64,000 nt of DNA from a virus, in the IMG/VR virus record IMGVR_UViG_3300027721_000734, positions 49,477 through 113,476 of that record, one strand, 5' to 3'. Shown one piece after another: positions 16,355 through 53,044 of this stretch. The notes under the pieces were generated by a model. It did no database searches. It saw only the letters and a program-made list of their open reading frames with translations, and was not told where the DNA came from. Both the position numbers and the translations under genes were made by a program. Within the stretch, counting starts at the first letter, position 1. Each line of letters starts with the position of its first letter.

Positions 16355-16549
16355 ATGTTAATAGTTAAATTAGATAAAAACACTACGATTGAGCGAGCTT
16401 TAAAACTTTATAAAAGTAAGGTAATAAAAACTCGACAAAGTTCTGAACTTGTTAAAAGAAAAGAATTTGTTAAAGAGTCTGTTATTAAAAGAGCTGAACT
16501 TTCTAAGGCAAAGTATGTCCAAAAGAAGTTTAAGTCGAATAACGACTAA
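16355..16549 (+). CDS. rpsU: Ribosomal protein bS21 (phage-encoded)
   Basis: The start at 16355 is chosen because it gives the typical bS21 beginning (MLIVKLDKNTTIERALKLYK). The 64-residue product then follows the family pattern: the ALKLYKSKV helix, SELVKRKEFVKES (the conserved R-x-R/K-x-x-F/Y region) and a basic helical tail (VIKRAELSKAKYVQKKFK). The length is normal for Bacteroidota bS21. In these bacteria bS21, with bS6 and bS18, hides the 3' end of 16S rRNA and so helps abolish Shine-Dalgarno use; a phage copy could replace the host protein. It is on the plus strand inside a minus-strand head cluster and overlaps the stop of the next gene by four bases. A longer TTG-started reading from 16328 is open but unlikely. 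Confidence 0.88.
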   Translation: MLIVKLDKNTTIERALKLYKSKVIKTRQSSELVKRKEFVKESVIKRAELSKAKYVQKKFKSNND

Positions 16550-27727: not shown

Positions 27728-28474
27728 TTATTGTATTTCATTTAAGGATAATGATTTATCAATGTACTCATTTTGAAAATTAAACAATTTTTCTAGGTAT
27801 CCATTTCTTCTCAATACCTTGAAAACTAAATTTTCATTTGATAGTTCCCCACCTTTTTCTAGTCCTGAAGTTCTATACTTTTTTAACTTATCTTTATATC
27901 TATCTATCAATTTTTTTGCGTCGTCCAATGACTCATCTTTAGCGTTTTCGATAACATCATCTATGGTTTTCATCCATTCTTCCGATTTTATTTTAACTGA
28001 TTGGGTATCAATTTCCACATTTTCTTTTTTTGGTTCGCTAACCCATTCATCAAATAATACAGAATATTCTCCACTACTAAAATGTTTTTCAACATCATCC
28101 TGAACATACAATTCAACATCATATCCATATATGGTGATATTATGTTTATCGTTATATAAAGTTTTTTTTAATCTAAATAATTCTTCGTATAATGGTAATT
28201 CTTTTTCCGAAAATTGTTTAAAATCCACAATTATATGTAAATCCACATCGGAATATTTTGACCAATTAAAATTTGCCAATGAACCGGTCATTACCACATC
28301 GGAGACAATTATATCAACACCCAAAAAATCAATAAACTCATAAGCAATTTCTAAAAGACGCTCCCTAACTTTAGGGTTTATCGTTTCTGTTTTATTTTCT
28401 TTTGAGTTCCAAAATTTAGGGTTTAATTTGTCCTGTAGTTTAAAACTTGATAATATACTTTTTAAATTACTCAT
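27728..28474 (-). CDS. Nucleotidyltransferase-fold protein
   Basis: A 248-residue protein. MTGSLANFNWSKYSDVDLHIIVDF is the G-S-x(9-10)-D-x-D signature of the DNA polymerase beta-like nucleotidyltransferase superfamily (residues about 62-85). A later acidic residue lies in GYDVELYVQDD (third carboxylate candidate). Members add nucleotides to RNA, proteins or small molecules; similar lone domains occur in T4-type phages. With the RNA-repair genes in this genome, tRNA 3'-end or RNA modification is possible but unproven. Confidence 0.75.
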   Translation of the reverse strand: MSNLKSILSSFKLQDKLNPKFWNSKENKTETINPKVRERLLEIAYEFIDFLGVDIIVSDVVMTGSLANFNWSKYSDVDLHIIVDFKQFSEKELPLYEELFRLKKTLYNDKHNITIYGYDVELYVQDDVEKHFSSGEYSVLFDEWVSEPKKENVEIDTQSVKIKSEEWMKTIDDVIENAKDESLDDAKKLIDRYKDKLKKYRTSGLEKGGELSNENLVFKVLRRNGYLEKLFNFQNEYIDKSLSLNEIQ

Positions 28475-29157: not shown

Positions 29158-31209
29158 ATGATAGAATCTATGGATGGTAACGAAGGAAGAGGTAAAAACA
29201 CAAGTATTACCGAATCAGCAACACCAGTGTTGGACAATTTTAGTCGAGATTTAATAAAATTGGCTGAAGAAGGGAAATTAGACCCCGTTATTGGTAGAGA
29301 AAGTGAAATTACGAGAATCGCCCAAATTCTTTCTCGTAGAAAGAAAAATAACCCAATTATTATTGGAGAACCTGGTTGTGGTAAAACCGCCATCGTTGAG
29401 GGTCTGGCAATTAAAATCTACAATGGGGATTGTCCAAGAAATTTAATGGATAAAAGAATTGTATCGTTAGATATGATATCAATCGTTGCTGGAACAAAGT
29501 ATCGTGGTCAATTTGAAGAACGAATGAAAGTAATTATTGAAGAATTACAAAACGCACCAAATATCATCGTATTCATTGATGAGATTCATACCATCGTTGG
29601 TGCGGGAAATTCATCCGGGTCAATGGATGCGTCAAACATCTTTAAACCAGCTCTTGCTCGTGGAGAAATCCAATGTGTTGGAGCAACAACATTAGATGAA
29701 TATAGAAAAAACTTTGAAAAAGATGGAGCGTTAGAAAGACGTTTTCAAAAAGTTGTTGTTGATTCACCAACCAAAGAAGAGACATTACTTATCTTGGAAC
29801 AATCAAAAGAAAAATATGAATCTTACCACAAGGTTACCTATTCCAATGAGATTTTAAATCTATGTGTTGATTTGGCGGAGAGATATATCACCGATAGAGA
29901 ATTTCCGGACAAAGCGTTTGACATCCTTGATGAGGTTGGTGCAAGAAGTCAGGTGGAAATTAAGATGCCAGACTCAATAGAAAAGTTGAAACTCCAAGCG
30001 TCCGATATTAAACAACAAAAAATGGATGTTGTTAAACGACAAGATTATGAGGAAGCTGCAAATCTTCGTGATAAAGAAAAGAGAGTGTTAAATAAACTTG
30101 AGTCTGAAAAGAAAAAGTTTGAAGAGGACCTTCTTACTAATAAGAAAGAAATCACCATTGATTTGGTTTATGAGGTTGTATCCAACATCACCAAAATTCC
30201 AATCACCAAATTAAACTCTGATGAGACTAAATTATTATCCGAAATGGAAGGTAATTTATGTGATAAGGTTATTGGACAATCTGAAGCTGTTTCAAAAATT
30301 GCCAAGTCAATCAGAAGAAATAGAATCGGGATTAAAGACCCAAACAAACCAATTGGTTCATTTATCTTTTTAGGGTCAACCGGTGTTGGTAAAACATATT
30401 TAGCAAAACAACTCGCCAAACAAATGTTCGGTAGTGAGGATAATATGATTCGTGTGGATATGTCAGAATACCAAGAAAAACATACCATATCAAGATTAAT
30501 CGGAGCACCTAGCGGATATGTTGGGTATGAAGATGGGGGACAACTAACCGAACAGGTTAAAAATAAACCATATTCTGTTATTCTATTTGATGAGGTTGAG
30601 AAAGCTCATAAAGATATTTTCTCCACACTTCTTCAAGTATTGGATGAAGGACACCTAACCGATAGTTTAGGGAAAAAAATCAATTTCAAAAATTGTGTGA
30701 TTATTATGACCTCAAATGTCGGAGCAAAAAAATTACAAGATTTTGGTTCAGGTGTTGGTTTTAAAACTGGGTCAAGTACCTATGTTGAGGAAGAATATCG
30801 TAGAGATGTTTTGAAAAAGGAATTAAAGAAATTCTTTACTCCGGAATTCTTAAATCGTGTAGACGAGATTGTAATCTTTAATTCTTTAGTGAAAGAAGAT
30901 GTTAAAAAAATTGTGAAATTAGAATTGGATATTCTAACTAAAAGATTAGTTGGAATGAAATACAACATCACTTTTGATGGTAGTGTTTTAGATTTAATAT
31001 CTGATGTTGGATTTGATGAGACCTACGGAGCAAGACCGATTAAACGAGCTATCCAAGACAAACTTGAGGATTTTGTATCAGAGGAGATTATAAAAGGAAA
31101 TGTGGTTGAAAACACCCCATACACAATTATCTCTGTGGATAAAGAAATTAAATTTCAAGAGGTTGTTGAAGTTGTGAAAAAGACAAGAAAGAAAAAGGGG
31201 GATGTATAA
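29158..31209 (+). CDS. ClpC/ClpA-type double AAA+ unfoldase without N-domain
   Basis: A 683-residue protein with no Clp N-domain. The first AAA+ domain has DPVIGRESEI, Walker A GEPGCGKT (residues 70-77), Walker B IVFIDEIHT and an ALERRFQKV arginine finger. The middle helix includes KRQDYEEAANLRDKEKRVL, a UVR-type segment as in ClpC. The second AAA+ domain has Walker A GSTGVGKT, Walker B VILFDEVEKAH, EFLNRVDEI and YGARPIKRAIQ. Between MTSNVGAKKLQ and the final helices lies GSGVGFKTG. It sits at the position of the ClpP-docking loop of ClpC, and VGF is the ClpC tripeptide. It therefore probably feeds host ClpP. It has its own promoter and a strong terminator and lies next to an aminopeptidase and the tmRNA/SmpB pair. 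Confidence 0.9.
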   Translation: MIESMDGNEGRGKNTSITESATPVLDNFSRDLIKLAEEGKLDPVIGRESEITRIAQILSRRKKNNPIIIGEPGCGKTAIVEGLAIKIYNGDCPRNLMDKRIVSLDMISIVAGTKYRGQFEERMKVIIEELQNAPNIIVFIDEIHTIVGAGNSSGSMDASNIFKPALARGEIQCVGATTLDEYRKNFEKDGALERRFQKVVVDSPTKEETLLILEQSKEKYESYHKVTYSNEILNLCVDLAERYITDREFPDKAFDILDEVGARSQVEIKMPDSIEKLKLQASDIKQQKMDVVKRQDYEEAANLRDKEKRVLNKLESEKKKFEEDLLTNKKEITIDLVYEVVSNITKIPITKLNSDETKLLSEMEGNLCDKVIGQSEAVSKIAKSIRRNRIGIKDPNKPIGSFIFLGSTGVGKTYLAKQLAKQMFGSEDNMIRVDMSEYQEKHTISRLIGAPSGYVGYEDGGQLTEQVKNKPYSVILFDEVEKAHKDIFSTLLQVLDEGHLTDSLGKKINFKNCVIIMTSNVGAKKLQDFGSGVGFKTGSSTYVEEEYRRDVLKKELKKFFTPEFLNRVDEIVIFNSLVKEDVKKIVKLELDILTKRLVGMKYNITFDGSVLDLISDVGFDETYGARPIKRAIQDKLEDFVSEEIIKGNVVENTPYTIISVDKEIKFQEVVEVVKKTRKKKGDV

Positions 31210-31235
31210 TCCCCCCTTTAAATACCAAAAAAAAT

Positions 31236-31262
31236 AACCCCACCTTTCGGAGGGGTTTTTTA
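31236..31262. terminator. Bidirectional terminator
   Basis: An ACCCCACC/CGGAGGGGT hairpin with T-runs on both strands, between the convergent Clp and aminopeptidase genes. Confidence 0.75.
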
Positions 31263-31263
31263 T

Positions 31264-32085
31264 TTAAAACTTATAAAAATATTTTGAATCCGTTTTATAT
31301 AAATATTTTTTATATCCCAAATCCTGAATCATCTTTTTACCGGTCTCTATTCCACTATAAACATCCTCAACAACCACATATTCATTTTTAGTGTGATAGT
31401 TGTAATAACCTATCGCAAAATTGATACAGGAGAAGTCAAAAATGTTTTTTAAAGCGTAAACATCGGTATAAGGATGTGATTGGTAATCGTGTCTACCCTG
31501 AAACCCCTCGTTTAACGCAACATCACAAATTTTAAAGAACTCCCCATCTCTATCAAATAATTGAGTCCCCATACAAAATTCACTAACCATAACATTTCCT
31601 GGAGCATCAAACTGAATCCCATAACCAACATTCATAAAGAAGTCAGGGCTTGCTTTTTTGGACCCGTGACATCCGGTTTCTTCTGATACAAAGAATGCCG
31701 CCTTTAGATTTGGTAATTCTTTTAATAATTCCAAACAAGCATAAACACCACATTTATCATCACCACCAATTCCGGTTGGATGTCCAAAATGATTATAAGC
31801 CTTTAATGATGGTTTTTTTTGACCTTGTTCATTTAATAAAATTTCTTCAGTTACGATAATATTATCTAATGAATGAACGGTGTCTGTATGAGCAATAACA
31901 CAAGGAAAATAATCAATAAATTCGTCTGTTTGTTTTATAGCGTAGATATTATTATGTTCATCCACATTGAAGGGAATCCCATTTTCCTCTAACCAATTGA
32001 TTAGAAATTCTACCATAAGGTCTTCTTGATATGTTTTTGTCGGAACCGACAATACATCTTTTAATAATTGATAATTTCTTTCCAT
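31264..32085 (-). CDS. Small M20/M42-type zinc aminopeptidase
   Basis: A 273-residue protein with the metal-site motifs of the MH clan in order: VIAHTDTVHS (His, Asp), GIGGDDKCGVYACLELL (bridging Asp), VSEETGCHGS (Glu-Glu), QFDAPG (Asp) and YHTKNEYVVVED (final His). The order resembles peptidase T-like enzymes, which remove N-terminal residues from short peptides. It is shorter than typical members (about 350-410), so the lid/dimer domain seems absent. It is convergent with the Clp unfoldase gene and could recycle the peptides made by ClpP (inference). Confidence 0.8.
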   Translation of the reverse strand: MERNYQLLKDVLSVPTKTYQEDLMVEFLINWLEENGIPFNVDEHNNIYAIKQTDEFIDYFPCVIAHTDTVHSLDNIIVTEEILLNEQGQKKPSLKAYNHFGHPTGIGGDDKCGVYACLELLKELPNLKAAFFVSEETGCHGSKKASPDFFMNVGYGIQFDAPGNVMVSEFCMGTQLFDRDGEFFKICDVALNEGFQGRHDYQSHPYTDVYALKNIFDFSCINFAIGYYNYHTKNEYVVVEDVYSGIETGKKMIQDLGYKKYLYKTDSKYFYKF

Positions 32086-32126
32086 AGCACAAATATAGGG
32101 AAAATAATTAACATAAAAACATTATT

Positions 32127-33488
32127 TTAATTTATTCTAACAAAACCCTCAAATAATTCGGGTGAAACTAAAAAGTTATTAAATTCTTCTTCGGTATAAC
32201 TTCTACGAGCAACACCAGTTTTAGTGAAAACATCCATGTGTATTCTATTTGTTTCCGGGTCAATTTCTCTAAGAAAAAATTCTCTACCATATGAAGTTTT
32301 ACTTCTAGTATTAATTGGGTATTTAGAGACAACTCTATCGTAGATATTTGAATATTCTAAAATATCCACATACTTATCAGATTCTTCTAATTCCTCAAGT
32401 ATTTCATCTAATTCTTCACCTATTACGCGATTAAGTCGTTCTTCATCAAAATCATTACATTGTATTTCATATCTATATTCATCCCACCCACCAGTGTTAA
32501 ATGTGTGTCCGATATCTGTTAAAACACCATTGATATTTTTGGTGGGGTCTTGACTAATCTTAAACATTGACAATAAAAGTCCAACAGTGGTATAATAAGT
32601 TTCAAAACAATCTATGTTGATTAACCCATAATTTTGGAAAATTTCACAAAGTTCATCTTTAATTTCTTTTTTAGCCTTATCGTGACGACACCCATTTTCA
32701 AGGTCCACATATTCTTCTAACATACTTTCAACTTTACCTCTGAACATATCCATTAATTTTTTAGCAGCCTTTTCTTTGGTTTCCTCGCCATCTAACGAAA
32801 TTAAATCAGGTGAAATATATTTTAAAATTTGTTTTAATTTACCCTTATTTTCATCTGAAAACCAACCGAAAAAATACCCCCCTTCCCAATCATCGGCGGC
32901 TACATTATAATCAACATAATCATATGTGTCACCGTAATATGAAAATAAACTATTAACATAATAAACATCATCTTCCTCAACATCAAATAATTTAACATAA
33001 TCTTCTATATTGTCAAATCGTAATTTGATTGTGCTTTTACCTGGATTTTTTTCGTTGTAATTAAATTTATAAACTAAATCGTCAGCACGTTCCATTTCAT
33101 TAGATGACACCGGTTCACCATTCTTAATCTTAACCAATAATTCATAAATTGGACTATAACCAATTATGGGTTCAAGTTCCGATTTAACTTCATTAGGTAA
33201 CTCATAAAATAATTCTTTCCTATCAATAAGTCTATATCTCATAGCCTCACTGCCCAAATAAAGTATTTCATTATCGGGACCTTTATGAATAACATATATT
33301 TGGATAGGTTCTTTATCTTTATCAATAATAAAGTAAGTATTTCCATCCCGAAATTCATCCCATTTAGATTTTATCGAAGGAGGAGCGTAATATATAAAAG
33401 AATCGTAATCCATTGGTTCAACAATTAACCAATCGTCATTGTCAAATATTGTTTTAAATTCCCCGTGAGAGTCGTTTTTATCGGGCAT
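32127..33488 (-). CDS. Hypothetical acidic protein (453 aa)
   Basis: A 453-residue protein, acidic and Tyr-rich. NDDWLIVEPMDYDSFIYYAP, GNTYFIIDKDKEPIQIYVIHKG and ADDWEGGYFFGWFSDENKG are distinctive. The N-terminal 100 residues have an alternating strand pattern resembling small phage domains that read their own protein context, but no family is recognised. It is transcribed away from the tmRNA gene; the two starts are 78 bases apart. Confidence 0.65.
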   Translation of the reverse strand: MPDKNDSHGEFKTIFDNDDWLIVEPMDYDSFIYYAPPSIKSKWDEFRDGNTYFIIDKDKEPIQIYVIHKGPDNEILYLGSEAMRYRLIDRKELFYELPNEVKSELEPIIGYSPIYELLVKIKNGEPVSSNEMERADDLVYKFNYNEKNPGKSTIKLRFDNIEDYVKLFDVEEDDVYYVNSLFSYYGDTYDYVDYNVAADDWEGGYFFGWFSDENKGKLKQILKYISPDLISLDGEETKEKAAKKLMDMFRGKVESMLEEYVDLENGCRHDKAKKEIKDELCEIFQNYGLINIDCFETYYTTVGLLLSMFKISQDPTKNINGVLTDIGHTFNTGGWDEYRYEIQCNDFDEERLNRVIGEELDEILEELEESDKYVDILEYSNIYDRVVSKYPINTRSKTSYGREFFLREIDPETNRIHMDVFTKTGVARRSYTEEEFNNFLVSPELFEGFVRIN

Positions 33489-33521
33489 AGATATTTATTT
33501 TAATAATAAATATATTTTTAT

Positions 33522-33551
33522 TTGGAATTATCTAAAAATGTATTATCTTTG
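33522..33551 (+). promoter_or_regulatory. Consensus Bacteroidota promoter of the tmRNA gene
   Basis: TTTGG with TTG at 33522-33524, 19 bases, then TATCTTTG at 33544-33551. The tmRNA 5' end lies about 14 bases downstream. Confidence 0.85.
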
Positions 33552-33565
33552 TATCAGAATAATAA

Positions 33566-33976
33566 GGGGATGACCGGTATTGATTGGTATTATTAATTAT
33601 TCGGGGCACGTAGTGAGATGTTCTCTATCACTTAAATCTATGGGTAACAAAATTCTAAATGGCAACATTTTAAACAAAATGGCTCTAGTAGGTCTTGTAC
33701 GTCAAGATGAGCTTGTGAACGTAGCGTAAGCAAACACACATTAGGGTCGGTGGACAGATACCCAGTAACAGGAGTCCAATAAGGTGTAATACCACCCGAA
33801 GATGTATTAGGAGTCTCGTTCAGGGAGCTACTTCAACACAAGTGAACCCGACACAGTTATTGGTAACGATGTTAAAATAGGAACCAAATATTTGTCAGTT
33901 GAGAATTAATTGAATAAACGTGTAGTCCTTAATTTTTAAGGTAAACAAGAAAGGGGTTCGATTCCCCTCATCTCCA
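33566..33976 (+). ncRNA. ssrA: Transfer-messenger RNA (tmRNA)
   Basis: The 5' end GGGGATGACCGGTATTGATTGG and the 3' end GGGGTTCGATTCCCC-TCATCTCC-A form the tRNA-like part. GGGGATG pairs with CATCTCC with one G-U, and the T-arm is perfect. The section GCACGTAGTGAG matches Bacteroidota tmRNA. An internal frame begins after TAGTA, as in the resume-codon context, at GGT 33691 and ends at TAA 33727-33729. It encodes GLVRQDELVNVA. CCA is not encoded. The RNA is about 411 nt, with its own promoter and a terminator at 34006. It rescues stalled ribosomes with SmpB, encoded 500 bases away. Confidence 0.92.
33691..33729 (+). other. Proteolysis-tag reading frame of the tmRNA
   Basis: The 12-codon frame GLVRQDELVNVA plus TAA. 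The Gly resume codon follows CTAGTA, matching the conserved TAGTN before resume codons; Bacteroidota tags also start with Gly. The end NVA differs from the usual LAA end. An alternative start three codons upstream (GCT) is possible. Confidence 0.7.
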
Positions 33977-34005
33977 CTGGTGAGTCCCATCACCTCCACA
34001 CAAAA

Positions 34006-34031
34006 AAGAGACCTAAATGGTCTCTTTTTTT
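34006..34031 (+). terminator. Terminator of the tmRNA
   Basis: A GAGACC-TAAAT-GGTCTC hairpin followed by eight T. Confidence 0.8.
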
Positions 34032-34049
34032 ATTGATAATCACCAATAA

Positions 34050-34074
34050 AAAAACCACCCGAAGGTGGTTTGTT
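34050..34074 (-). terminator. Terminator after the gene at 34096
   Basis: An ACCACC-TTCG-GGTGGT hairpin read on the minus strand, followed by a T-run. Confidence 0.7.
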
Positions 34075-34095
34075 ATCAGTTCAAATGTTTATTTT

Positions 34096-34440
34096 TTAAT
34101 CTTTTAATACTTGTTTATCCCCAACCGGAGATGTAAATTTATTTGTTAATTTATCTAATCTTGAATCAAAAATTCTATATGTGTCGTTGATTGTCTTATT
34201 GATATACTGATTTATTTCAGTATGTAATCTATTAACCCTATCAACCTCACCATCTATACGACGATTAAGAGTGTCTCCTTCTCTATTTATCTCATTAAAG
34301 ATATGTCCTTGGACTTGTTCTAATTGCTTACATTTATTTTTTAATCTGTTAATCTGAATGCACATTATAACCATAACCACAACTCCCAGTACCCCGAGAA
34401 CCAAACCTATACCCATAATGAACGATGTTAAATCTACCAT
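34096..34440 (-). CDS. Membrane-anchored coiled-coil protein
   Basis: A 114-residue protein. Residues 4-28 form one strong transmembrane helix (IMGIGLVLGVLGVVVMVIMC). The rest is a charged coiled coil (LKNKCKQLEQVQGHIFNEIN) ending in a short loop. The layout resembles small phage spanin-like or holin-accessory proteins, but the lysis genes are elsewhere, so function remains open. It sits between tmRNA and smpB on the minus strand. Confidence 0.65.
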   Translation of the reverse strand: MVDLTSFIMGIGLVLGVLGVVVMVIMCIQINRLKNKCKQLEQVQGHIFNEINREGDTLNRRIDGEVDRVNRLHTEINQYINKTINDTYRIFDSRLDKLTNKFTSPVGDKQVLKD

Positions 34441-34490
34441 AATTTCTTTTTTTTATTTGTTTATTATTGAACTGATGATTAAATATAATA

Positions 34491-34519
34491 AAAAAAAGGG
34501 ACTATTTCAAGTCCCTTTT
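34491..34519 (-). terminator. Terminator overlapping the smpB stop
   Basis: AAGGGACTTGAAATAGTCCC followed by a T-run on the minus strand. The upstream arm lies inside the last smpB codons. Confidence 0.7.
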
Positions 34520-34939
34520 CATATCCCTCTCTATGTCCCGAGATTTTATGGTATCTCGTTTATCGTGTATCTTCTTCCCTTTGGCAAGAGCAATTTCCAT
34601 CTTAATCAATCCGGTGTCGTTTATGAAGACGCGATAAGGAACGATTGTGGTACCGTTGATTAACTCATTCTCCAACTTAATAAGTTCTTTTCGTTTGGCT
34701 AATAGTTTTCTATCCTTTACGGTCTCGTGGAACGACCCAAACCCATAATCGGAGATGTTCATCCCCTTTATAAATAACTCCCCGTTATTGAAATAGCAAT
34801 ACCCTTCAGAGATGGACACCTTTCCCTGACGAATGGACTTTACCTCTGAACCAACTAGTTTGATTCCCACAATTAGTGTCTGTAGGAATGAATACTCAAA
34901 CTTGGCTTTCTTATTGACTATGTTAATTGATTTTTTCAT
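34502..34939 (-). CDS. smpB: SsrA-binding protein SmpB
   Basis: A 145-residue protein with the full SmpB pattern. NKKAKFEYSFLQTLIVGIKLVGSEVKS is the start of the OB barrel, followed by GKVSISEGYCYFNNGELFIKG, then KLLAKRKELIKLENEL. ALAKGKKIHDKRDTIKSRD is the tmRNA-binding and decoding-centre tail. The length is normal. SmpB carries tmRNA into the empty A site. It lies 0.5 kb from the phage ssrA gene on the opposite strand, with a -7 element (TATCTTTG) about 5 bases before the ATG, and is thus nearly leaderless. Confidence 0.93.
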   Translation of the reverse strand: MKKSINIVNKKAKFEYSFLQTLIVGIKLVGSEVKSIRQGKVSISEGYCYFNNGELFIKGMNISDYGFGSFHETVKDRKLLAKRKELIKLENELINGTTIVPYRVFINDTGLIKMEIALAKGKKIHDKRDTIKSRDIERDMKRDLK

Positions 34940-34951: not shown

Positions 34952-35016
34952 ATGATTTTTTTTATATAAAGTATGAATTTTGGTATTTTATTAGATATTT
35001 ATAATAAAGAGACATT

Positions 35017-35169
35017 ATGAAATTAAGAAAAAAAGAAGAAGATAAAAAAGTAAAATTCACCATTTGTGTTGACCCGGTGATATATCAAAAAATGGAAGAT
35101 GAGATGATTAAAAAATCTCGTCTGATTGAAACATTATTAAAAGAACATTATGGAAAAAAAAGTTTGTAG
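35017..35169 (+). CDS. Small ribbon-helix-helix-like protein
   Basis: A 50-residue ORF: a basic start (KLRKKEEDKKV), one strand (KFTICVDPVIYQKM) and two helices (EDEMIKKSRLIETLLKEHY). This is the order of CopG/Arc-type DNA-binding proteins. Its last 20 bases overlap the start of the HNH gene, so the two are co-translated. It may regulate that mobile gene. Confidence 0.6.
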   Translation: MKLRKKEEDKKVKFTICVDPVIYQKMEDEMIKKSRLIETLLKEHYGKKSL

Positions 35170-35872
35170 TAAGTGTAAGGAGGAAAAAGAAGTTTGTGAG
35201 TTTGGGAAACGTAAAGATTCTAAAGATGGTTACAACCAAGAATGTAAATGTTGTCATAACGAATATTTTAAAAAATACAGACAAACAAACGACACTAAAA
35301 AATATAAAATAAAATATTTTGAGAAAAATAAAGATAAAATTAACAAATCAAATAGAAAACGACGAGAAGATAATAAAGAAAAAATAAACGAATATTTACG
35401 TGAATGGAGAAAATTAAATAAAGAAAAACTCAAACAATATTCCGAAAAAAGTAAAGAAACAAATAAAAGATACATCACTAACAATCTTGATAAAGTTAGG
35501 GAACGAAGAAATAAATATTTTAGAGAACGAAAAAATAATGACCCTTTATTTAAGTTATCTTGTAATTTAAGAACCTTAATAGGGGTATCCTTAATTAATT
35601 ATGGTTATAGTAAAAACACTAAATCATATGAAATACTTGGAATTTCGTTTAATGAATTATTATTATATTTTGAAGGGTTATTTGAAAATTGGATGAGTTG
35701 GGATAATTACGGGAAATACAACGGAGAATATAGTTATGGATGGGATATAGACCATAAAGTTCCTTTATCTTCAGCAAAAAATGAGGAAGAAATAATTAAA
35801 CTAAATCATTATACCAATTTACAACCTCTCTGTGGTAAAATAAATAGAGAGATTAAAAAAGATAATTATTAA
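35150..35872 (+). CDS. HNH homing endonuclease with zinc-binding N-terminus
   Basis: A 240-residue protein. It has two CxxC pairs at the N-terminus (VCSKCKEEKEVCEF and QECKCCHNEYF), then a long Lys/Asn-rich helical spacer (residues 45-130). A C-terminal HNH module follows: MSWDNYGKYN, GWDIDHKVPLSSA, NHYTNLQPLCGKINREIK. It is related to the HNH gene next to the capsid. It is followed by the terminator of the large RNA on the other strand. Probably a selfish insertion beside the tmRNA/SmpB region. Confidence 0.85.
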   Translation: MEKKVCSKCKEEKEVCEFGKRKDSKDGYNQECKCCHNEYFKKYRQTNDTKKYKIKYFEKNKDKINKSNRKRREDNKEKINEYLREWRKLNKEKLKQYSEKSKETNKRYITNNLDKVRERRNKYFRERKNNDPLFKLSCNLRTLIGVSLINYGYSKNTKSYEILGISFNELLLYFEGLFENWMSWDNYGKYNGEYSYGWDIDHKVPLSSAKNEEEIIKLNHYTNLQPLCGKINREIKKDNY

Positions 35873-35911: not shown

Positions 35912-36795
35912 GGCTAAATACGATGAGAATACTCGTCTTACTAAGAATCTTTTGAAGGATTATTGTTTCCCTTCGTTTCCATCAACTTTTGGTTGATAAT
36001 TCTTAACACCGGTTATTTAGGATAACCATACCTTAGGGTCTTAATTACTCTCCTGATACTCAATCCTATTCAAGTTTGCGACCTGATTCGGGGTTCGACC
36101 CCCTATAAGTTTTTCACAGAAATCTAATCAGTCTTGCGGACATCTTAGGCTACCGACAGCCGGTAACTAAGTTGGTGTCTTACATCAAAACCCGGTAAAC
36201 ACTTTTGCTCTTTTCTGTTTAGTTTTTCACCATATGAAAATAGTTAATGTGTTGTGGATGAATCAAAGAAGTGGTCTACCATAAGCTCCATAACCTTTTG
36301 GGTTAAAGAATACTAAACTTCTTCGTGAGATATCCCTATCTCGGTAATTTAAGAATTCTTCGAATCAAAATCTTGGTAGATTTTTGATAAGGATAATGAC
36401 AGCACCACCTGTTACTTATCTTGTCTTTCGACTTTAAGATTTCTCTTGTACTGGAACTCGCAATTATAAGGTTGGATAACCTTACTTCTCACATAGACCC
36501 TATGAGTTATTTTTATTGGTGTTCCCACCTCAAACAGACAATCCACATTGCCCGTTCAGTTTTCCATTTCCCTACGAAGTCATCCTCGGTACTACAGGCT
36601 CACTGATATCTCACTTGTATACTCGAGCCCCATTTCTGAAGCCGCAAACCTATTAACACAATAGGTTCACTTTACATCAATTTTCATTGACTTATTTAAG
36701 GATGATATACCACCCATTATCGTTTTTTACACCACCGAAGTGGGTAAAGGATAATCTAAAATTTCTAAGAACGTCTTTAAGGTTTCCCTTAATTG
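35880..36795 (-). ncRNA. Large structured noncoding RNA (about 0.9 kb), GOLLD/ROOL-like candidate
   Basis: There is no plausible ORF, but there is a strong promoter at 36801-36830 and a nine-pair terminator at the 3' end. Read on the minus strand it is full of stable hairpins with GNRA or UUCG loops: CCACTTCGGTGG, AACCTATT-GTGTT-AATAGGTT, GGTG-GGAA-CACC, AAGGTT-ATCC-AACCTT, GTC-GAAA-GAC, AAAATCT-ACCA-AGATTTT, GAGATA-GGGA-TATCTC, CTTAG..ACCG-GCTGT-CGGT..CTAAG and ACGAG-TATT-CTC-A-TCGT. Size, ornateness and a place beside phage tRNA genes fit the giant phage RNAs GOLLD and ROOL. Membership was not verified by a covariance model. Confidence 0.75.
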
Positions 36796-36955: not shown

Positions 36956-37049
36956 TGGTGGTATCAGATGGGCTCGAACCACCGGCACAGAGACTTTCGG
37001 GACTCCTGCTCTACCAAGGGAAATAAATCTCCCACTGAGCTATAATACC
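36956..37049 (-). tRNA. tRNA-like gene with extended D-loop and encoded CCA
   Basis: Acceptor GGTATTA/TGATACC (7 pairs), A73 and CCA encoded. T-arm GGTGG-TTCGAGC-CCATC. The D-stem GCTC/GAGC encloses a 25-base loop that itself can form GGGA/TCCC. The anticodon region GAGTC-CCGAAA-GTCTC gives a 6-base loop without U33, so identity (perhaps GAA) cannot be set. It lies between the two permuted-order genes. Confidence 0.55.
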
Positions 37050-37060
37050 ATATAAAATAA

Positions 37061-37135
37061 TGTGGGTGTATGCTCTACCATCTGAGCTACGGATTTGAAA
37101 CCGGAGGGATTTGAAACCTCGACACAACACCCACA
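37061..37135 (-). tRNA. tRNA-like gene with permuted order, copy 2
   Basis: The ends TGTGGGTGT/ACACCCACA pair perfectly. In RNA order a T-arm-like GAGGT-TTCAAAT-CCCTC comes first. Then come CGGTTTC and AAATCCG, which pair at five of seven positions like an acceptor with no linker, then TA and a canonical D-arm GCTCAGATGGTAGAGC. One base and TACAC follow. The order matches copy 1. Position 53 is mismatched and the T-arm motif is duplicated in the acceptor region, so decay is possible. Confidence 0.45.
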
Positions 37136-37165
37136 CCATTACTTCAATGAACTTATTTTCTTCTA

Positions 37166-37196
37166 CAAAGATAATACATTTATTTTAATCTGTCAA
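37166..37196 (-). promoter_or_regulatory. Bacteroidota promoter before the odd tRNA cluster
   Basis: TTG (37196-37194), 20 bases, TATCTTTG (37173-37166) on the minus strand. Confidence 0.75.
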
Positions 37197-37214
37197 ATAT
37201 TTTTTGAAATTTTT

Positions 37215-37424
37215 TTAATTCATGTTATCTAAAAACATTTCAATAATCTCATCTTCCTCTTCATCTGTCCCTTCGGCTCCGTTAAGCCATTCTATGGTAT
37301 CTACAGTATAGTCATCCCAATTATCCCAGAATGCGTGAATTGTAAATCCTCTTCCATCCTCTGTTTGACCATCATAATCATAATTTGCTGAAGTTAAAAT
37401 TTCACTCGAATAATTTATTTCCAT
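37215..37424 (-). CDS. Small acidic hypothetical protein
   Basis: A 69-residue acidic, Trp/Asp-rich protein (FTIHAFWDNWDDYTVDTIEWL; GTDEEEDEIIEMFLD). It has the composition of a real small phage gene. It lies between the odd tRNA cluster and a composite tRNA-like element. Function unknown; many such acidic phage proteins inhibit host factors, but nothing here shows that. Confidence 0.6.
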   Translation of the reverse strand: MEINYSSEILTSANYDYDGQTEDGRGFTIHAFWDNWDDYTVDTIEWLNGAEGTDEEEDEIIEMFLDNMN

Positions 37425-37446
37425 TTTTTTTTATTTTTTAATTTGT

Positions 37447-37538
37447 AGTCAGGAGAGGAATCGAACCTCTCTACAGGGAGCTACCCGTCATCCATGACCT
37501 TCCATCGGACTCGAACCGACCTTGTATCCAACCTGACT
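37447..37538 (-). tRNA. Composite tRNA-like element with two T-arms
   Basis: The ends AGTCAGG/CCTGACT form a perfect 7-pair acceptor helix. A canonical T-arm AGAGG-TTCGATT-CCTCT is next to the 3' side. A second perfect T-arm-like hairpin GTCGG-TTCGAGT-CCGAT lies near the 5' side where the D-arm should be. No normal anticodon arm is seen. It may be a recombinant of two tRNA genes. Confidence 0.5.
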
Positions 37539-40183: not shown

Positions 40184-41209
40184 CTACAACTTTTTAAACT
40201 CCGGTCTGATTAAGTTCCATATGATTTCAGAATAATCTTTTTTATCGAACATCCTAAATAATATCCCTGATAAATGTTTATTTTGTTGTGACACCCACTC
40301 AGCGTATTCTTTTCTATCTGTGATAGGTTCTTTGTCGTTATATTTACCATACATTTTACCATCAAATTTTTTACCAGCATCTTCAGATATTTGGAAATAA
40401 AAATACCTTAATTCTTTTACATAATTTTTAATTTTGGTGTAAAATTCATCCGGAACATCTTTTAATAATTCCATCACATCTTCACCATTTTTTAGATATT
40501 CCCAAACTCCGGTTGTTGATACATTGGTCATAATTTTATGAAGACGCAAATACTCAACACCTTTAACTTTAACTCTATCCCCATTTGAAAACTTCACCAC
40601 AAACCCTTCTTGGTTGTTTTTAACCATTTCTTTAAGTTCTTTGAAGTCCTTAATACCATCGTATTTTTTAACCACATCAAAACCCCACTCATCCCAATCT
40701 GACATGTCATAATCTTTACCCCAATTATCGAATGCTCCCAATAGGACCAGTTTCTCTTCACCTTTATAATCCAAAACAATTCTGTTTTCCGGATAGATAA
40801 TCTCAAAACAAAATGTCATATGTCTGAACATTATGTCTGTATTGTATTTCTTTAAGAGTTCTCTCGCTTTGATTGCTTGGTCTGATGTAAATGAACCACG
40901 AGTGGCAACCACCCATTGACCCTGATACCAAAATACAATACCTAATGAACCGTCCATTTTTTCATAAACCTCAAAGGTTTCAGTTGGAGTATATTTCCCT
41001 TCCTCAATATTAAAGAACTTTTTAAATGGTGTCGCAACAATATCTCCTTTGTCGTCAGTAACTAAACCTCTACACATAAGAGTCACCTCATCCCACAGGT
41101 TCTCGTACTGAACTTTCTCAGTATAATTCCATATGGTTAATGGAAGTGATGGATGTACTTGTTTGTAAAGTAATCCGTCTTCGTAATATTTGTTTAGTTT
41201 TTCTAACAT
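40184..41209 (-). CDS. RNA ligase, T4 Rnl1 type
   Basis: A 341-residue protein. Nucleotidyltransferase motifs: I YEKMDGSLG (Lys84 is the AMP-accepting residue), Ia-like VVATRGSFTS, III-like FEIIYPENRIVLDY, IV EGFVVKF and V KVKGVEYLRLHK. MCRGLVTDDKGDIVATPFKKFFN before motif I is typical of Rnl1, which seals tRNAs cut in the anticodon loop. It is the last gene of a cluster that also holds a second ligase, a kinase and a phosphoesterase. Confidence 0.9.
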   Translation of the reverse strand: MLEKLNKYYEDGLLYKQVHPSLPLTIWNYTEKVQYENLWDEVTLMCRGLVTDDKGDIVATPFKKFFNIEEGKYTPTETFEVYEKMDGSLGIVFWYQGQWVVATRGSFTSDQAIKARELLKKYNTDIMFRHMTFCFEIIYPENRIVLDYKGEEKLVLLGAFDNWGKDYDMSDWDEWGFDVVKKYDGIKDFKELKEMVKNNQEGFVVKFSNGDRVKVKGVEYLRLHKIMTNVSTTGVWEYLKNGEDVMELLKDVPDEFYTKIKNYVKELRYFYFQISEDAGKKFDGKMYGKYNDKEPITDRKEYAEWVSQQNKHLSGILFRMFDKKDYSEIIWNLIRPEFKKL

Positions 41210-41543: not shown

Positions 41544-42638
41544 TTATTTTTCGTTTAATAAAAATTTATTTGATATTACTTTGAATGAGATTTTTCTATC
41601 CAAACTTCTAATTACAACACCCTCTCTATCGAAGTTGGGGTTCAAATCTGATTTACCATCAGCCATCTTTAATAACTCATCAATCGTGTCCGGTAAATGG
41701 AAATGTGTGTCTAACACCGGTACGGTCTCTATACCTAATTCAGTCACCAGTGATTGAAATAAAGATAATGAATCATACTCTTGTAAATCAATATGAAACA
41801 GGTTGAAGAATCTTACGGTTTGTCCTTTGATTTTATATGGGTTCCCTTGGATACCCTCACCAATAAGTTCTCCTTGAATAGAGATGTTCGCGTTCTCACC
41901 ATATTCTCTCATTTTGTTTTCCAAATCCAATTCACGAGCAACTTTCCAAAATGTGTTACCTTCAGTTTCCAATAACTCCAAATTACGAGAACAAACACCA
42001 AACTCTCCGTTATTGTAGTAGAATGTTGAGGAAGAACCATCTAATTTTTCTGTTACATAGTAAGTATGTTTCTTCATTTCTTCATACTCGGATGCCAAGT
42101 TCTGAATTCTCTCTTCATCAGTTTTACGAATGAAACTTGGGAACATACCTTTAACCTTTCCGGCTAGTTCTGCTGGAATTGGTGGTTCGTACTTAACGAT
42201 TCCCAATTTTTCAGTCACATCAGTTCCCGGAACCAATTCAATCATATCTGATGGTGAAATAACGGTTCTATTTGGTTCCAAAGCAACATTCTCATTTAAT
42301 AACGTTTCAGAAACTCTATAACCATAACCTTCAAATAAAACAGATAAAGGTAAAATTAATCCTTGGGATACCTGCCCGCGAAGTTTCACGGTCCTCAAAC
42401 GGAATCCTTCTTCATCACCCATTTTCTTATATGAACTCTTACGTAAGAATTCAAATTCTTCTCTGATTGGTAAGAATGAATCAATCTCACAATATACAAC
42501 CAAATCATTTATTCTGTGACCAACTTCTTTTGCCACAACCACTTTCCAACCATCCACGATTGACAATTCAATCATATCGGCCCCGGGAATTTCTTGAATA
42601 TCACTAATTCTTCTAATACTAGCTAACTTTCTTTCCAT
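41544..42638 (-). CDS. RNA ligase, DRB0094/Rnl5 type
   Basis: A 364-residue protein. An N-terminal OB-like domain (KLASIRRISDIQEIPGADMI; residues about 1-150) is followed by the ligase core. Motif I is VTEKLDGSSSTFY (Lys near residue 196), then FGVCSRNLEL, NISIQGELIGEGIQGN, EGVVIRS and SFKVISNKFLL. An N-terminal OB domain before the ligase core marks the DRB0094 family, which seals 3'-OH/5'-phosphate nicks in duplex RNA. It is coupled by a TAATG-type overlap to the upstream gene. Confidence 0.88.
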   Translation of the reverse strand: MERKLASIRRISDIQEIPGADMIELSIVDGWKVVVAKEVGHRINDLVVYCEIDSFLPIREEFEFLRKSSYKKMGDEEGFRLRTVKLRGQVSQGLILPLSVLFEGYGYRVSETLLNENVALEPNRTVISPSDMIELVPGTDVTEKLGIVKYEPPIPAELAGKVKGMFPSFIRKTDEERIQNLASEYEEMKKHTYYVTEKLDGSSSTFYYNNGEFGVCSRNLELLETEGNTFWKVARELDLENKMREYGENANISIQGELIGEGIQGNPYKIKGQTVRFFNLFHIDLQEYDSLSLFQSLVTELGIETVPVLDTHFHLPDTIDELLKMADGKSDLNPNFDREGVVIRSLDRKISFKVISNKFLLNEK

Positions 42639-49896: not shown

Positions 49897-49969
49897 TGGT
49901 CCCGGAGAATTACGATATCCCGACTTCTACATTATGAGTGTAGCACTCTAACCTCTGAGTTACGAGACC
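49897..49969 (-). tRNA. tRNA-Met/Ile2 (CAT) with altered T-loop
   Basis: Acceptor GGTCTCG/CGGGACC, D-loop with GG, anticodon arm CTACA-CTCATAA-TGTAG. The T-loop is ATCGTAA instead of TTCGANN (54 and 58 exchanged). CCA is not encoded. Confidence 0.8.
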
Positions 49970-50009
49970 AATTATGGGTTTTTAATGAACCCATAAAACA
50001 TATGTCAAT

Positions 50010-50240
50010 CTATTGGTGGTGCTTAATGTACCTCCCAAATTTATCAACCCTCACAGAGAGTTTCTCCAATCTAAAGTTCCAATTATCGAACTTTCCTAAG
50101 CCAGATTTTACTCTCGCCTGTTTAACCGCAGATACTTCTGCCTTCTCACGTCCTTCTTCCGTAGTTTCTACGAAAAAAGTGGGAGCCTGAACACCGTTTC
50201 TAACGGGAACTACTCTCCAAATTCTCAATTTCTGAGTCAT
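50010..50240 (-). CDS. Small basic hypothetical protein
   Basis: A 76-residue protein. MTQKLRIWRVVPVRNGVQAPTF then TTEEGREKAEVSAVKQARV and a basic C-terminus. Codon use and strand pattern look genuine although it lies among tRNAs. A palindrome TTTTAGCT-ATT-AGCTAAAA lies just before the start (50245-50264) and may regulate it. Function unknown; a ribosome- or RNA-binding role is only suggested by charge. Confidence 0.65.
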   Translation of the reverse strand: MTQKLRIWRVVPVRNGVQAPTFFVETTEEGREKAEVSAVKQARVKSGLGKFDNWNFRLEKLSVRVDKFGRYIKHHQ

Positions 50241-50308
50241 AAATTTTAGCTAATAGCTAAAACTATGTGGAGTTGGGTTGGTTGTTTTTCATATTTTTAA
50301 ATTTTTTG

Positions 50309-50388
50309 TATCCCCGGTGGGAGTCGAACCCACACGCCGAAGCAACAAGTCTTAAGCCTGTCGTGTATACCAGTTTCACCACGGAGAT
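50309..50388 (-). tRNA. tRNA-Leu (TAA)
   Basis: Acceptor ATCTCCG/CGGGGAT, anticodon arm ACAGG-CTTAAGA-CTTGT, long variable arm TGC-TTCGG-CGT, canonical T-arm GTGGG-TTCGACT-CCCAC. No CCA encoded. Confidence 0.9.
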
Positions 50389-50603
50389 GTGTTCCCCCAA
50401 TGAGATTAGTTTGGGGTAGATTTTTTCTGTTTTCCTATTCAAAAGTCGAGACGGTCTTACCCGCACATAAAAGTCAACTATTACTTGGAGGTGAGTTAGT
50501 ATGCTCCCTTTTCCCAAAGACCTCATCTGTAAAACCGTTTGAGGCGTCAGCCACATCATTATTTCGAACGATGCCAAATCATTGAGTATCTCTATCTCAA
50601 TTG

Positions 50604-50683
50604 TAGTCAGGACAGGACTCGAACCTGTAATTCCGGTTAAACCCCTCGACGGGGCCGCGTCTATCCAATTCCGCCACCCGACT
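50604..50683 (-). tRNA. tRNA-like gene, Leu/Ser-type body with defective anticodon loop
   Basis: Acceptor AGTCGGG/CCTGACT, D-arm GCGGAATTGGATAGACGC, canonical T-arm ACAGG-TTCGAGT-CCTGT, variable part about 12 bases. The anticodon arm GCCCC-GTCGA-GGGGT has only five loop bases and no U33. Identity unknown; it may be inactive. Confidence 0.5.
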
Positions 50684-50757
50684 ATTTTCCCGTCTTTCCG
50701 AGATGTCAACTACTTACCAATTAGCCTCATTGGTCAATCCTCTTATAGTCGATTTTG

Positions 50758-50834
50758 ATGGTAAGGTGGGATTCGAACCCACATCCTTTCGGCCAATTAA
50801 GACCGAACGCTTTCGCCGTTTGAGCTTCTTACCA
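50758..50834 (-). tRNA. tRNA-like gene with eight-base anticodon loop
   Basis: Acceptor TGGTAAG/CTTACCA (7 pairs), T-arm GTGGG-TTCGAAT-CCCAC. The anticodon arm TCGGT-CTTAATTG-GCCGA has an 8-base loop, and position 8 is A. TAA (Leu) is the most natural reading, but frame is uncertain. Confidence 0.6.
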
Positions 50835-51066
50835 AACATTTTGGAAAAACTTGATGATTACGTTTACCATCTTCGACTTGAGTTTGTCTTATTCATTTTC
50901 CCATTTTTTTTTGAGAGATTTCCCTGTAAAATACAGTCAATCTCGTCCTAAACCAAATCATTCTTTCTTTTAAGGTTAAGAAACATTTAACTACCTATTT
51001 GACACCACTGACTTTTCTTAACTACAAAAAACAGACTCTCAAACTGAACCCCGGAAAAACGACTCG

Positions 51067-51139
51067 AGCTTCCGACCGGTCTCGAACCGACAACTTCGAC
51101 CTTACAAGGGACGCACTCTACCAATTGAGTTACGGAAGC
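51067..51139 (-). tRNA. tRNA-Thr (TGT)
   Basis: Acceptor GCTTCCG/CGGAAGC, D-loop AATTGGTA, anticodon loop CTTGTAA, T-arm GTCGG-TTCGAGA-CCGGT. One mismatch lies in the anticodon stem. Confidence 0.88.
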
Positions 51140-51181
51140 CTGTTGCAGAGTATTTTTTTTAAGTAGAAGTCAACTCTGTCT

Positions 51182-51305
51182 CTTAAACTACTAAAAGAAA
51201 CTGTCCAAGGTCTATCCTGCTTTCGCTGTCCAGATTTTTCTCTGTTTCTTAAAACATCATCACTTCGGCCACATTGGGAGAACCGCAGTTCCCACGTAGT
51301 TTAAG
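51182..51305 (-). ncRNA. Helix-bounded structured RNA
   Basis: CTTAAACTAC (51182) pairs with GTAGTTTAAG (51296), and nested AAGAAAC/GTTTCTT closes an inner domain with an AGC-GAAA-GCA hairpin. There is no ORF. It lies between two tRNAs. Confidence 0.4.
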
Positions 51306-51354
51306 GAGGTAGTTGGCGGCGTATCACACCGAGTTATGATAATGTATTAAAAAA

Positions 51355-51480
51355 AAAACCAACAACCGGATTTGAAACTTACCTACGCACAGTGAGGTAT
51401 CCGGTCTTCATCGTTCGCATTGCCTAATCATTGAGTACTATTTCATTTCGGCTGCCGTGCGTGTCATTAGTGATGGTTTT
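51355..51480 (-). ncRNA. Helix-bounded structured RNA
   Basis: AAAACCA/TGGTTTT ends. Inside are ACGCAC/GTGCGT and CCGGAT/ATCCGG with nested ACCT/AGGT, some mutually exclusive. On the minus strand it ends in a run of ten T, which could terminate transcription. Confidence 0.4.
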
Positions 51481-51491
51481 AATCTTTATTG

Positions 51492-51564
51492 TACCCCAGG
51501 AGGGAATCGAACCCTCAAAATCTTGTGCCTAAAACAAGCGTGTCTACCGTTCCACCACCGGGGC
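51492..51564 (-). tRNA. tRNA-Leu (TAG) with short variable region
   Basis: Acceptor GCCCCGG/CTGGGGT, anticodon arm CTTGT-TTTAGGC-ACAAG, T-arm GAGGG-TTCGATT-CCCTC. The variable part is only five bases (ATTTT), unlike the class II arm usual for Leu. Confidence 0.85.
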
Positions 51565-51674
51565 GTTTTGGTGGGTCTCGACCCCACCTGTTTGAATTAC
51601 TTGTTGATTCCTCTTACTTTTCTCACCTAACTAGTATGTGGTGTGTAAAACCAATCTACCATCACTCAACCCAT

Positions 51675-51938
51675 TTACTTCGTCTCAATAATATTATAGG
51701 TTCCTTGAACCATTCCGAAACTTGAATCCTCGTGGAATTTGTAAGTCTCAGGGACTTCTCCTTCTCTCATAGGCCTTGAAACAGTCCAAAGATGTTCATC
51801 TTTCCAAGTAACGTTTACCAACTTTTCACCCTGAGGTAATTTGATGGTTCCGGTCCCTCCAAAACTTTTCACTCTTTGATTCTCTGTACAAGATGCCAAA
51901 GATACTAATAATATTAAACTTAAAACAACTTTTTTCAT
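51675..51938 (-). CDS. Small lipoprotein
   Basis: An 87-residue protein. Signal peptide with lipobox VVLSLILLVSLASC (Cys17); mature part FGGTGTIKLPQGEKLVNVTW, DEHLWTVSRPMREGEVPETY and FGMVQGTYNI. This compact beta domain is seen in several phages as a short protein of unknown function (from memory). It is exported and lipid-anchored by prediction. It lies inside the tRNA array. Confidence 0.75.
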   Translation of the reverse strand: MKKVVLSLILLVSLASCTENQRVKSFGGTGTIKLPQGEKLVNVTWKDEHLWTVSRPMREGEVPETYKFHEDSSFGMVQGTYNIIETK

Positions 51939-51966
51939 AAAAATAACAAATAAAATTAAAAAATTG

Positions 51967-52038
51967 TGACCCCACAGGGATTCGAACCCCGATTGAAAGC
52001 TTAGAAGGCTTTAGTCCTATCCGTTGAACGATGGAGCC
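51967..52038 (-). tRNA. tRNA-Arg (TCT)
   Basis: Acceptor GGCTCCA/TGGGGTC, D-arm with GG, anticodon arm AAAGC-CTTCTAA-GCTTT, T-arm CGGGG-TTCGAAT-CCCTG. Confidence 0.9.
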
Positions 52039-52042
52039 AAAG

Positions 52043-52116
52043 AGCAACATGCCGGTCTCGAACCGGCCTTATTTCACATTGGAAGTGTGATGCCATACCT
52101 ACTAGGCGAATGTTGC
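52043..52116 (-). tRNA. tRNA-Gly (TCC)
   Basis: Acceptor GCAACAT/ATGTTGC, anticodon arm TCACA-CTTCCAA-TGTGA, T-arm GCCGG-TTCGAGA-CCGGC. It is four bases from tRNA-Arg. Confidence 0.9.
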
Positions 52117-52120
52117 AGTT

Positions 52121-52198
52121 TAGATGAACTTCGGACTTGTGTACCGAAATGAGACCCAATAATTAAATCACTAACCCTAGGTGTGGTCTATTCATCTA
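52121..52198 (-). ncRNA. tRNA-sized helix-bounded RNA
   Basis: TAGATGAA/TTCATCTA ends, 78 nt. An inner TTCGG/CCGAA hairpin stands near the T-arm place, but no clear D or anticodon arm is seen. Followed by T-rich DNA on its 5' side only. Confidence 0.35.
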
Positions 52199-52249
52199 TT
52201 TTTTTAAGCTTATACCTTTAAAATAAATTTAAATTTTAAGCTTATAAGT

Positions 52250-52423
52250 TTAAACTTTTGTTTTAAGGATGTTAATCTCCTTCTCGATTCTTTTCTTATC
52301 AAAATCGGTTAAAGGGATTTTAGTACTCATAGTACCCTTTTCGGTTTTTACACCATTTTTTAATTGTTTCTCCAACATATCAAGAACTCTTTGTTGTCTT
52401 GACCTTTTTGCTACTGTAGCCAT
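52250..52423 (-). CDS. Small basic protein
   Basis: A 57-residue helical protein (MATVAKRSRQQRVLDMLEKQ; TKIPLTDFDKKRIEKEINIL). Highly basic and soluble; a clean reading frame among RNA genes. It may bind RNA or DNA (inference from charge). No family recognised. Confidence 0.65.
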   Translation of the reverse strand: MATVAKRSRQQRVLDMLEKQLKNGVKTEKGTMSTKIPLTDFDKKRIEKEINILKTKV

Positions 52424-52447
52424 ACGGATTTAGTTATTAAATTAGTA

Positions 52448-52518
52448 GCGTAGGGCAGGTAACGCTCCTGCTTTAGTCGGCTTATGAGACCGATGAGATA
52501 CTATACCTCCCCCTCGCG
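52448..52518 (-). tRNA. tRNA-Met/Ile2 (CAT) with altered D- and T-loops
   Basis: Anticodon arm TCGGT-CTCATAA-GCCGA, T-arm GCAGG-AGCGTTA-CCTGC, D-arm GAGG-TATAGTA-TCTC without GG. The acceptor pairs with one bulge. Confidence 0.75.
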
Positions 52519-52530
52519 ATGTATTATTTT

Positions 52531-52604
52531 TGGCGGTCTATGACGGTAACGCTCCGTCTACTCAACAGTGACAGTGTTGGATGATGCTTCTTCACTAATA
52601 GACC
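52531..52604 (-). tRNA. tRNA-Asp (GTC) with altered D- and T-loops
   Basis: Acceptor GGTCTAT/ATAGACC, G73 and CCA encoded. D-arm GTGA-AGAAGCA-TCAT, anticodon arm CAACA-CTGTCAC-TGTTG, T-arm GACGG-AGCGTTA-CCGTC. Confidence 0.85.
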
Positions 52605-52647
52605 AAAATTTTCAATCCAAAGGTGACAAACCTATAACAATTGAAAG

Positions 52648-52696: not shown

Positions 52697-52707
52697 GTTT
52701 TGTTTTA

Positions 52708-52738: not shown

Positions 52739-52759
52739 ATTTATCTTTGTTTTTTTTTG

Positions 52760-53041: not shown

Positions 53042-53044
53042 ACT

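Follow-up and report, generated by a model that had tools for sequence, protein, structure and literature searches.

A Predicted Trans-Translation and Degradation Block with Its Own Conserved Tag in Very Large Lake Phages of Bacteroidota

Introduction

Can a phage carry a complete route for rescuing stalled ribosomes and destroying the products, rather than single genes borrowed from one? The question is raised by a 64,000-nucleotide stretch of virus DNA, bases 49477–113476 of the IMG/VR virus record IMGVR_UViG_3300027721_000734, which is 113,476 bases long (the whole stretch is termed the window below, and positions are counted from its first letter). Here a transfer-messenger RNA (tmRNA) gene, its adaptor SmpB, a ClpC-type unfoldase and a PepT-like aminopeptidase lie within 6 kb. 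We propose, with a probability of roughly 0.6, that this block is a phage-owned, self-contained trans-translation and degradation pathway. All the parts, their conservation, the tag frame, the catalytic motifs and a ClpP in near-complete relatives can be read from the DNA.

This very large lake virus infects Bacteroidota, to judge from two signs: the type of its tmRNA promoter, and the bacterial proteins closest to the window SmpB, which are almost all from that phylum. Similar phages are also predicted to infect freshwater Bacteroidota (PMC9723584, PMC12619734). We scanned IMG/VR and obtained 61 loci for SmpB; for ClpC there were at least 597 stretches, 80 of which we retained. The comparisons cover 26 related records (six of them longer than 280 kb), 67 related phage tmRNAs and 29 Bacteroidota host genomes. 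The nearest long relative, G003, has a ClpC 98% identical to that of the window and is collinear with it, mostly at 83–97% DNA identity (75% in the lowest piece). Among annotated phages, the DNA of the block and of the tmRNA had no match.

A Fixed Order of Genes

The features on which the argument rests are the following.

27728–28474, minus strand: g248, a nucleotidyltransferase-like protein (polymerase beta fold), conserved upstream of ClpC
29158–31209, plus strand: ClpC-type double AAA+ unfoldase, 683 residues; best solved match S. aureus ClpC, E ~1e-221
31264–32085, minus strand: PepT/M42-like metallo-aminopeptidase, catalytic domain only, 273 residues, recognized by fold and metal ligands
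32127–33488, minus strand: g453, between PepT and tmRNA
33521–33524 and 33544–33551, plus strand: tmRNA promoter of Bacteroidota type, TTTG, N19, TATCTTTG
33566–33979, plus strand: tmRNA (ssrA), RF00023 73.7 bits (gathering score 47)
33661–33729, plus strand: tag reading frame in the tmRNA, resume codon GGC, translation GNILNKMALVGLVRQDELVNVA and stop
~34003–34032, plus strand: intrinsic terminator of the tmRNA, hairpin GAGACC..GGTCTC and T run
34502–34939, minus strand: SmpB, 145 residues, PF01668 157.8 bits

The four main genes had been proposed in a sequence-only reading of the window, and profile, covariance and fold matches now place each of them where that reading had drawn it. The order g248(−), ClpC(+), PepT(−), g453(−), tmRNA(+) recurs in every ClpC locus with sufficient downstream DNA, which excludes a chance arrangement. 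The tmRNA follows in the same order in 41/41 loci with at least 8 kb downstream (15/15 without near-duplicates) and PepT in 52/52 with 5 kb downstream (18/18 without near-duplicates), while g453 lies between the two, divergent from the tmRNA, in all 47 loci. L036 is the sole divergent locus, with its PepT match on the opposite strand. The conserved neighbourhood expected by the sequence-only reading is thus present, and the gene set, predicted to serve trans-translation, is conserved across related phages. That reading had also placed tag, adaptor, unfoldase and peptide trimmer together; the ClpC–PepT–g453–tmRNA core is indeed constant, but SmpB joins it in one subset only. In the 309 kb record G004, SmpB lies more than 100 kb from the block, and ClpC, PepT, g453 and tmRNA are still together.

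The tmRNA and Its Detection

The RF00023 match spans model positions 1–374 of 374, so the predicted fold as a tmRNA holds under a covariance model. The same model scores above its cut-off in 20/26 related records; the tmRNA of G001 falls slightly below the Rfam cut-off and has an intact tag frame. The acceptor stem of the window tmRNA, GGGGAUG/CAUCUCC, contains the G3–U70 alanine identity pair, which is kept in 28/28 relatives. The consensus fold of these 28 comprises the acceptor stem, a long P2 helix and the T arm, and 26 of its 40 pairs show two-sided compensatory changes. The window gene lacks an encoded CCA and has CTG after the discriminator A. A promoter and terminator had been claimed as well, and both are present in the sequence, the promoter being of Bacteroidota type and the terminator a hairpin followed by T residues. 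The −7 motif TAnnTTTG stands immediately 5′ of 56/67 related tmRNAs against 3.6% of random windows, and the complete two-part promoter is found at 41/67.

ARAGORN did not report the tmRNA at 33566–33979 when run on the window. It detects 4/67 tmRNAs of the phage lineage versus 27/29 of the host tmRNAs, and the 63 misses are probably the reason why publications on similar phages omit the tmRNA.

A Long Tag Unlike That of the Host

The resume codon GGC at 33661 lies directly 3′ of TAAAT, in a TAnnC/T context shared with Bacteroidota tmRNAs and with the phage relatives. A shorter tag in the same frame, starting from GCU (~33681), was dropped in favour of the GGC start because of this context, the conservation upstream and the ARAGORN reading, which independently gives the same frame in all four relatives that the program detects. 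Tagged proteins are predicted to carry GLVRQDELVNVA or a similar peptide. Throughout the lineage the frame is closed by a stop and encodes 21–22 residues, approximately G-N-[VI]-[LI]-x-K-[ML]-xxx-GL-[IV]-R-xx-E-x-V-x-V-A. Among 32 distinct versions of the DNA, codons change but the tag protein is held, as in Leu12 (CTT/TTA), Gly11 (GGT/GGA), Arg14 (CGT/AGA/CGC) and Ala22 (GCG/GCC/GCT). Most phage tags end in -VA, with the exceptions of ...EEVVTA in the L032 group and ...AAVAA in L110.

Host tags are 8–10 residues long and end in [LM]AA in 28/29 Bacteroidota genomes, with one unresolved; examples are GENNYALAA, GENNYAMAA and GNTSYAMAA. As translated from the genes, the phage tag is therefore about twice the host length, conserved among relatives and unlike the host tag, a difference that the sequence-only reading had overlooked. 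The window tag lacks the host-type [LM]AA end, which is a usual, non-defining feature of tmRNAs. Elsewhere, Lak phages of Prevotella have short host-like tags (DDEIDFRMAA, DDEIEFRMAA), and LR756504 has a long tag with an AVAA end. We also checked 230 open reading frames (ORFs) for tag-like C-termini that would mimic the degron and saw none.

Unfoldase, Peptidase, Adaptor and Protease

The unfoldase has two AAA+ modules with both Walker A/B sets, a short middle domain and the ClpP-contact loop GVGF. These motifs are conserved in 29 non-redundant relatives, with G534 and F535 of the loop invariant. The alignment covers residues 143–812 of S. aureus ClpC, and from its start at residue 143 it follows that the N-terminal adaptor-binding domain is missing. 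The Clp_N double repeat likewise has no match in the window protein, and all 29 relatives are 674–691 residues long; for lack of Clp_N we speak of a ClpC-like core rather than of a full ClpC. In G005 (213153–213662, minus strand) and also in L111 (14498–14962), ClpC and PepT are separated by a broken additional copy of the ClpC C-terminal part that contains an internal stop, which points to an earlier duplication or replacement of the unfoldase.

The peptidase scores below its family cut-off (23.0 against 24.6 bits) and far below PepT models (27.5 against 255). Its AlphaFold model (pLDDT, the predicted local distance difference test, 89) has B. cereus PepT 3gb0 as top fold match (E 1e-12) and also resembles M42 aminopeptidases. 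Seven residues, H66, D68, D109, E135, E136, D160 and H231, are invariant in 46 sequences and correspond to the metal ligands expected for the fold. At 273 residues against ~370–410 the protein lacks the second (dimerisation or lid) domain, and this, with the missed cut-off, is why we call it PepT-like and not PepT. Its identity as an M20/PepT-type peptidase is weak by sequence but clear by predicted fold.

SmpB exceeds both NCBIfam smpB equivalog cut-offs (153.9 against 130 and 152.1 against 119.1 bits), and its C-terminus holds the KKIHDKR motif (KKIHDKRDTIK) and a basic tail.

The sequence-only reading held that the phage borrows only host ClpP. This is probably wrong, since PF00574 (ClpP) is found in 11/26 related records, including 5/6 of those over 280 kb, and the record of the window, a 113 kb fragment, ends before the ClpP position known from relatives. 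The five long records also hold ClpC, SmpB and tmRNA. If the G003 record is circular, its ClpP would lie ~39 kb past the end of the window's record, which makes the absence of ClpP there uninformative. In the alignment the phage proteins keep the Ser-His-Asp triad.

A Proposed Pathway and Its Rivals

From what is established about tmRNA, SmpB and Clp we infer how these parts would work together, namely the tagging, the pairing of ClpC with ClpP, the reading of the tag by ClpC, the trimming and the timing. The host alanyl-tRNA synthetase (AlaRS) would charge the phage tmRNA with alanine via G3–U70. The tmRNA and SmpB would then enter a stalled ribosome, where the broken mRNA would be swapped for the tag frame, resuming at GGC, and a private tag of 21–22 residues would be added instead of the short [LM]AA degron of the host. 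The likely tag reader would be the N-domain-less phage ClpC, docked through its GVGF loop on a ClpP that would come from the phage where encoded and otherwise from the host, and the PepT-like enzyme may then trim the released peptides. The phage would probably benefit by regaining ribosomes and amino acids for its own synthesis once the host's rescue capacity is exceeded by broken mRNA. The reading of the tag by phage ClpC is the least supported of these steps. A bolder version holds that the tag is an orthogonal code, a private degron poorly read by host ClpXP and read only by the N-domain-less phage ClpC with ClpP; we regard it as tentative, with the odds somewhat against it.

Several points weigh against a self-contained pathway. 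SmpB is adjacent in 8/34 ClpC loci with 10 kb downstream, so many relatives may use host SmpB or a distant copy. PF00574 has no match in G006 (322 kb), nor in the window's record. Tags with an -LVA end are degraded in E. coli and Salmonella (PMC11003136), so host ClpXP might read -VA too. Gene order can, moreover, stem from shared expression and not from a shared pathway.

One alternative we consider unlikely yet worth serious attention: the phage tmRNA would serve rescue only, host ClpXP would destroy the products, and ClpC, ClpP and the peptidase would be nearby general proteostasis genes. The enterobacterial degradation of -LVA tags (PMC11003136) fits it, as do the VAA end of the L110 tag, the remote SmpB of G004, and the Lak phages, whose tags are host-like and which have tmRNA, SmpB and ClpP but no close relative of the ClpC. 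What it fails to account for is the conservation of the whole tag, the GL[IV]R core included, and its difference from the host tag throughout, as well as the fact that ClpC, PepT and tmRNA stay linked in every case, G004 included. An altogether different function, to which we assign a low probability, would be protective or redirecting: the phage tmRNA would win out over that of the host, and rescued chains would thereby escape [LM]AA-directed degradation by the host, or the RNA would be a decoy for host SmpB. The [LM]AA end is missing in all relatives (one has VAA), SmpB is not close by in many of them, and a molecule like the tag-less DS6A tmRNA inhibits tmRNA, perhaps by titrating SmpB (PMC4131195, PMC11915505). 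A pure decoy, however, would not keep a complete reading frame, some relatives retain their own SmpB, and the genetic link with an unfoldase and a peptidase speaks for degradation.

Still less probable, in our view, is that the PF00574 proteins of related phages are head-maturation proteases, so that the pathway would stop at host ClpP. ClpP-like prohead proteases do occur in phages, and the lineage ClpP is divergent, with cellular ClpP models scoring 218–237 bits, below their equivalog cut-offs (361 for PRK14514, the best model); none is present in the window's record. Head-maturation models, however, reach 58–63 bits, and the phage proteins match cellular ClpP structures over their full length, for which reasons we disfavour a prohead role. 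In G002 the gene lies ~70 kb from SmpB and ~90 kb from the gene for ribosomal protein bS21, which the bS21 phage study puts in the structural region, and a related published lineage counts a prohead core protease of its own among the core genes (PMC12619734). Taken with these alternatives, the phage-owned pathway remains the reading that we prefer.

Neighbouring Genes and RNAs

Two other proteins share the locus. g453 evolves fast (mean column identity 29%, two invariant residues) and has a confident model (pLDDT 90) yet no solved fold match and no family match; it is a candidate adaptor or anti-host factor. g248 (PF01909 20.8 bits, slightly below the cut-off of 21; phrog_36119) carries GSLANFNWSKYSDVDLH and could act on tRNA or tmRNA ends, an idea suggested by the CCA that the window tmRNA does not encode. 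Beyond the block lie the following features.

16364–16522, plus strand: homologue of ribosomal protein bS21 (PF01165), in 19/26 related records, the window included
34096–34440, minus strand: g114, a small protein, placed by synteny between tmRNA and SmpB in the subset with adjacent SmpB
35920–36325, minus strand: GOLLD RNA, conserved 3′ domain, RF02032 285 bits

g114 has a likely membrane anchor, as read from its sequence, and a coiled coil, and matches no family above cut-off. GOLLD is a giant RNA of unknown function. In many relatives its end lies ~100 nt or less upstream of smpB on the same strand, and in phages of the G004 type the two travel together, both far from the tmRNA block. At 74 other GOLLD loci SmpB was found in the flank once, 8.4 kb off, with a search pattern biased against the GOLLD of this lineage. 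We therefore rejected the adjacency as a general functional link and regard it as lineage-specific synteny, which gives no evidence of function. In the window, smpB and GOLLD are separated by an insert of ~0.9 kb (34954–35871) holding an HNH-type homing-endonuclease-like ORF (35150–35872, plus strand). G003 has an empty site of ~15 bp at this position (262944–262959), and an ORF related to the HNH-type ORF also occurs at window positions 10527–11099.

An array of more than 20 tRNA genes, all on the minus strand, occupies 36956–37538 and 49897–61912, its first two tRNAs lying near GOLLD. It includes odd tRNAs with predicted four-base anticodons (36956–37049 and 50757–50834). Adjoining RNA ligase genes at 40184–41209 and 41544–42638, both on the minus strand, are of T4 Rnl1 type and of PHA02142/RNA_ligase type, and the pair probably serves tRNA repair.

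Relation to Known Systems

Huge phages with tmRNA and SmpB have been described before, and so have ClpC and ClpP as single genes in phages; what is new is the fixed block together with its ClpP and private tag. tmRNA was counted in 402/18,146 phages (PMC9004378), and tmRNA with SmpB was reported in huge phages as termination or rescue genes (Al-Shayeb et al. 2020, PMC7162821), in a main text that includes no Clp gene or tag comparison and with tmRNAs found by ARAGORN. The bS21 homologue ties the virus to bS21 phages described from freshwater Bacteroidetes (PMC9723584), which together with the moraphages (PMC12619734) share its genome size, Bacteroidota hosts and bS21, and the window is likened to them by gene content. 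Between them, the two papers list a “Clp protease,” a core “ClpA” and a “putative peptidase” (PMC9723584, PMC12619734); neither text mentions tmRNA or SmpB, nor do they describe a link of ClpC or peptidase to tmRNA. Our search of the open-access literature brought up no account of the linked block or the distinct conserved tag, nor of any phage that has tmRNA, SmpB, ClpC and ClpP together.

With bacterial trans-translation through ClpXP/ClpAP the phage system shares tmRNA architecture, SmpB, resume-codon context, a Clp unfoldase and ClpP. It differs in a tag twice as long that ends in -VA and not [LM]AA, in an unfoldase that is an N-domain-less ClpC rather than ClpX, and in genes gathered in one block. 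A precedent for a long divergent tag is Mesoplasma florum, whose SsrA tag is read by its own Lon, a non-ClpXP protease (PMC9382460), although that system is cellular, uses Lon and not ClpC–ClpP, has an unrelated tag and is tied to the lack of active ClpXP. Among isolates with a tmRNA, phage Melnitz has a complete ssrA, and its authors also propose tagging of host proteins for recycling (PMC9004378); it differs in its two-piece tmRNA and riboswitch, and no Clp block was described.

Significance

With ARAGORN missing 63/67 tmRNAs in this lineage, phage tmRNAs are under-counted, and covariance models are needed to survey ribosome rescue in phages. If our interpretation of the block holds, the virus would possess an entire tag-and-destroy pathway and not just single borrowed genes, and a conserved non-host degron linked to its own unfoldase would amount to a natural orthogonal degradation system. 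This raises a testable question, namely what reads the phage tag. Should the orthogonal code prove true, the phage would own both ribosome rescue and selective proteolysis within one cell.

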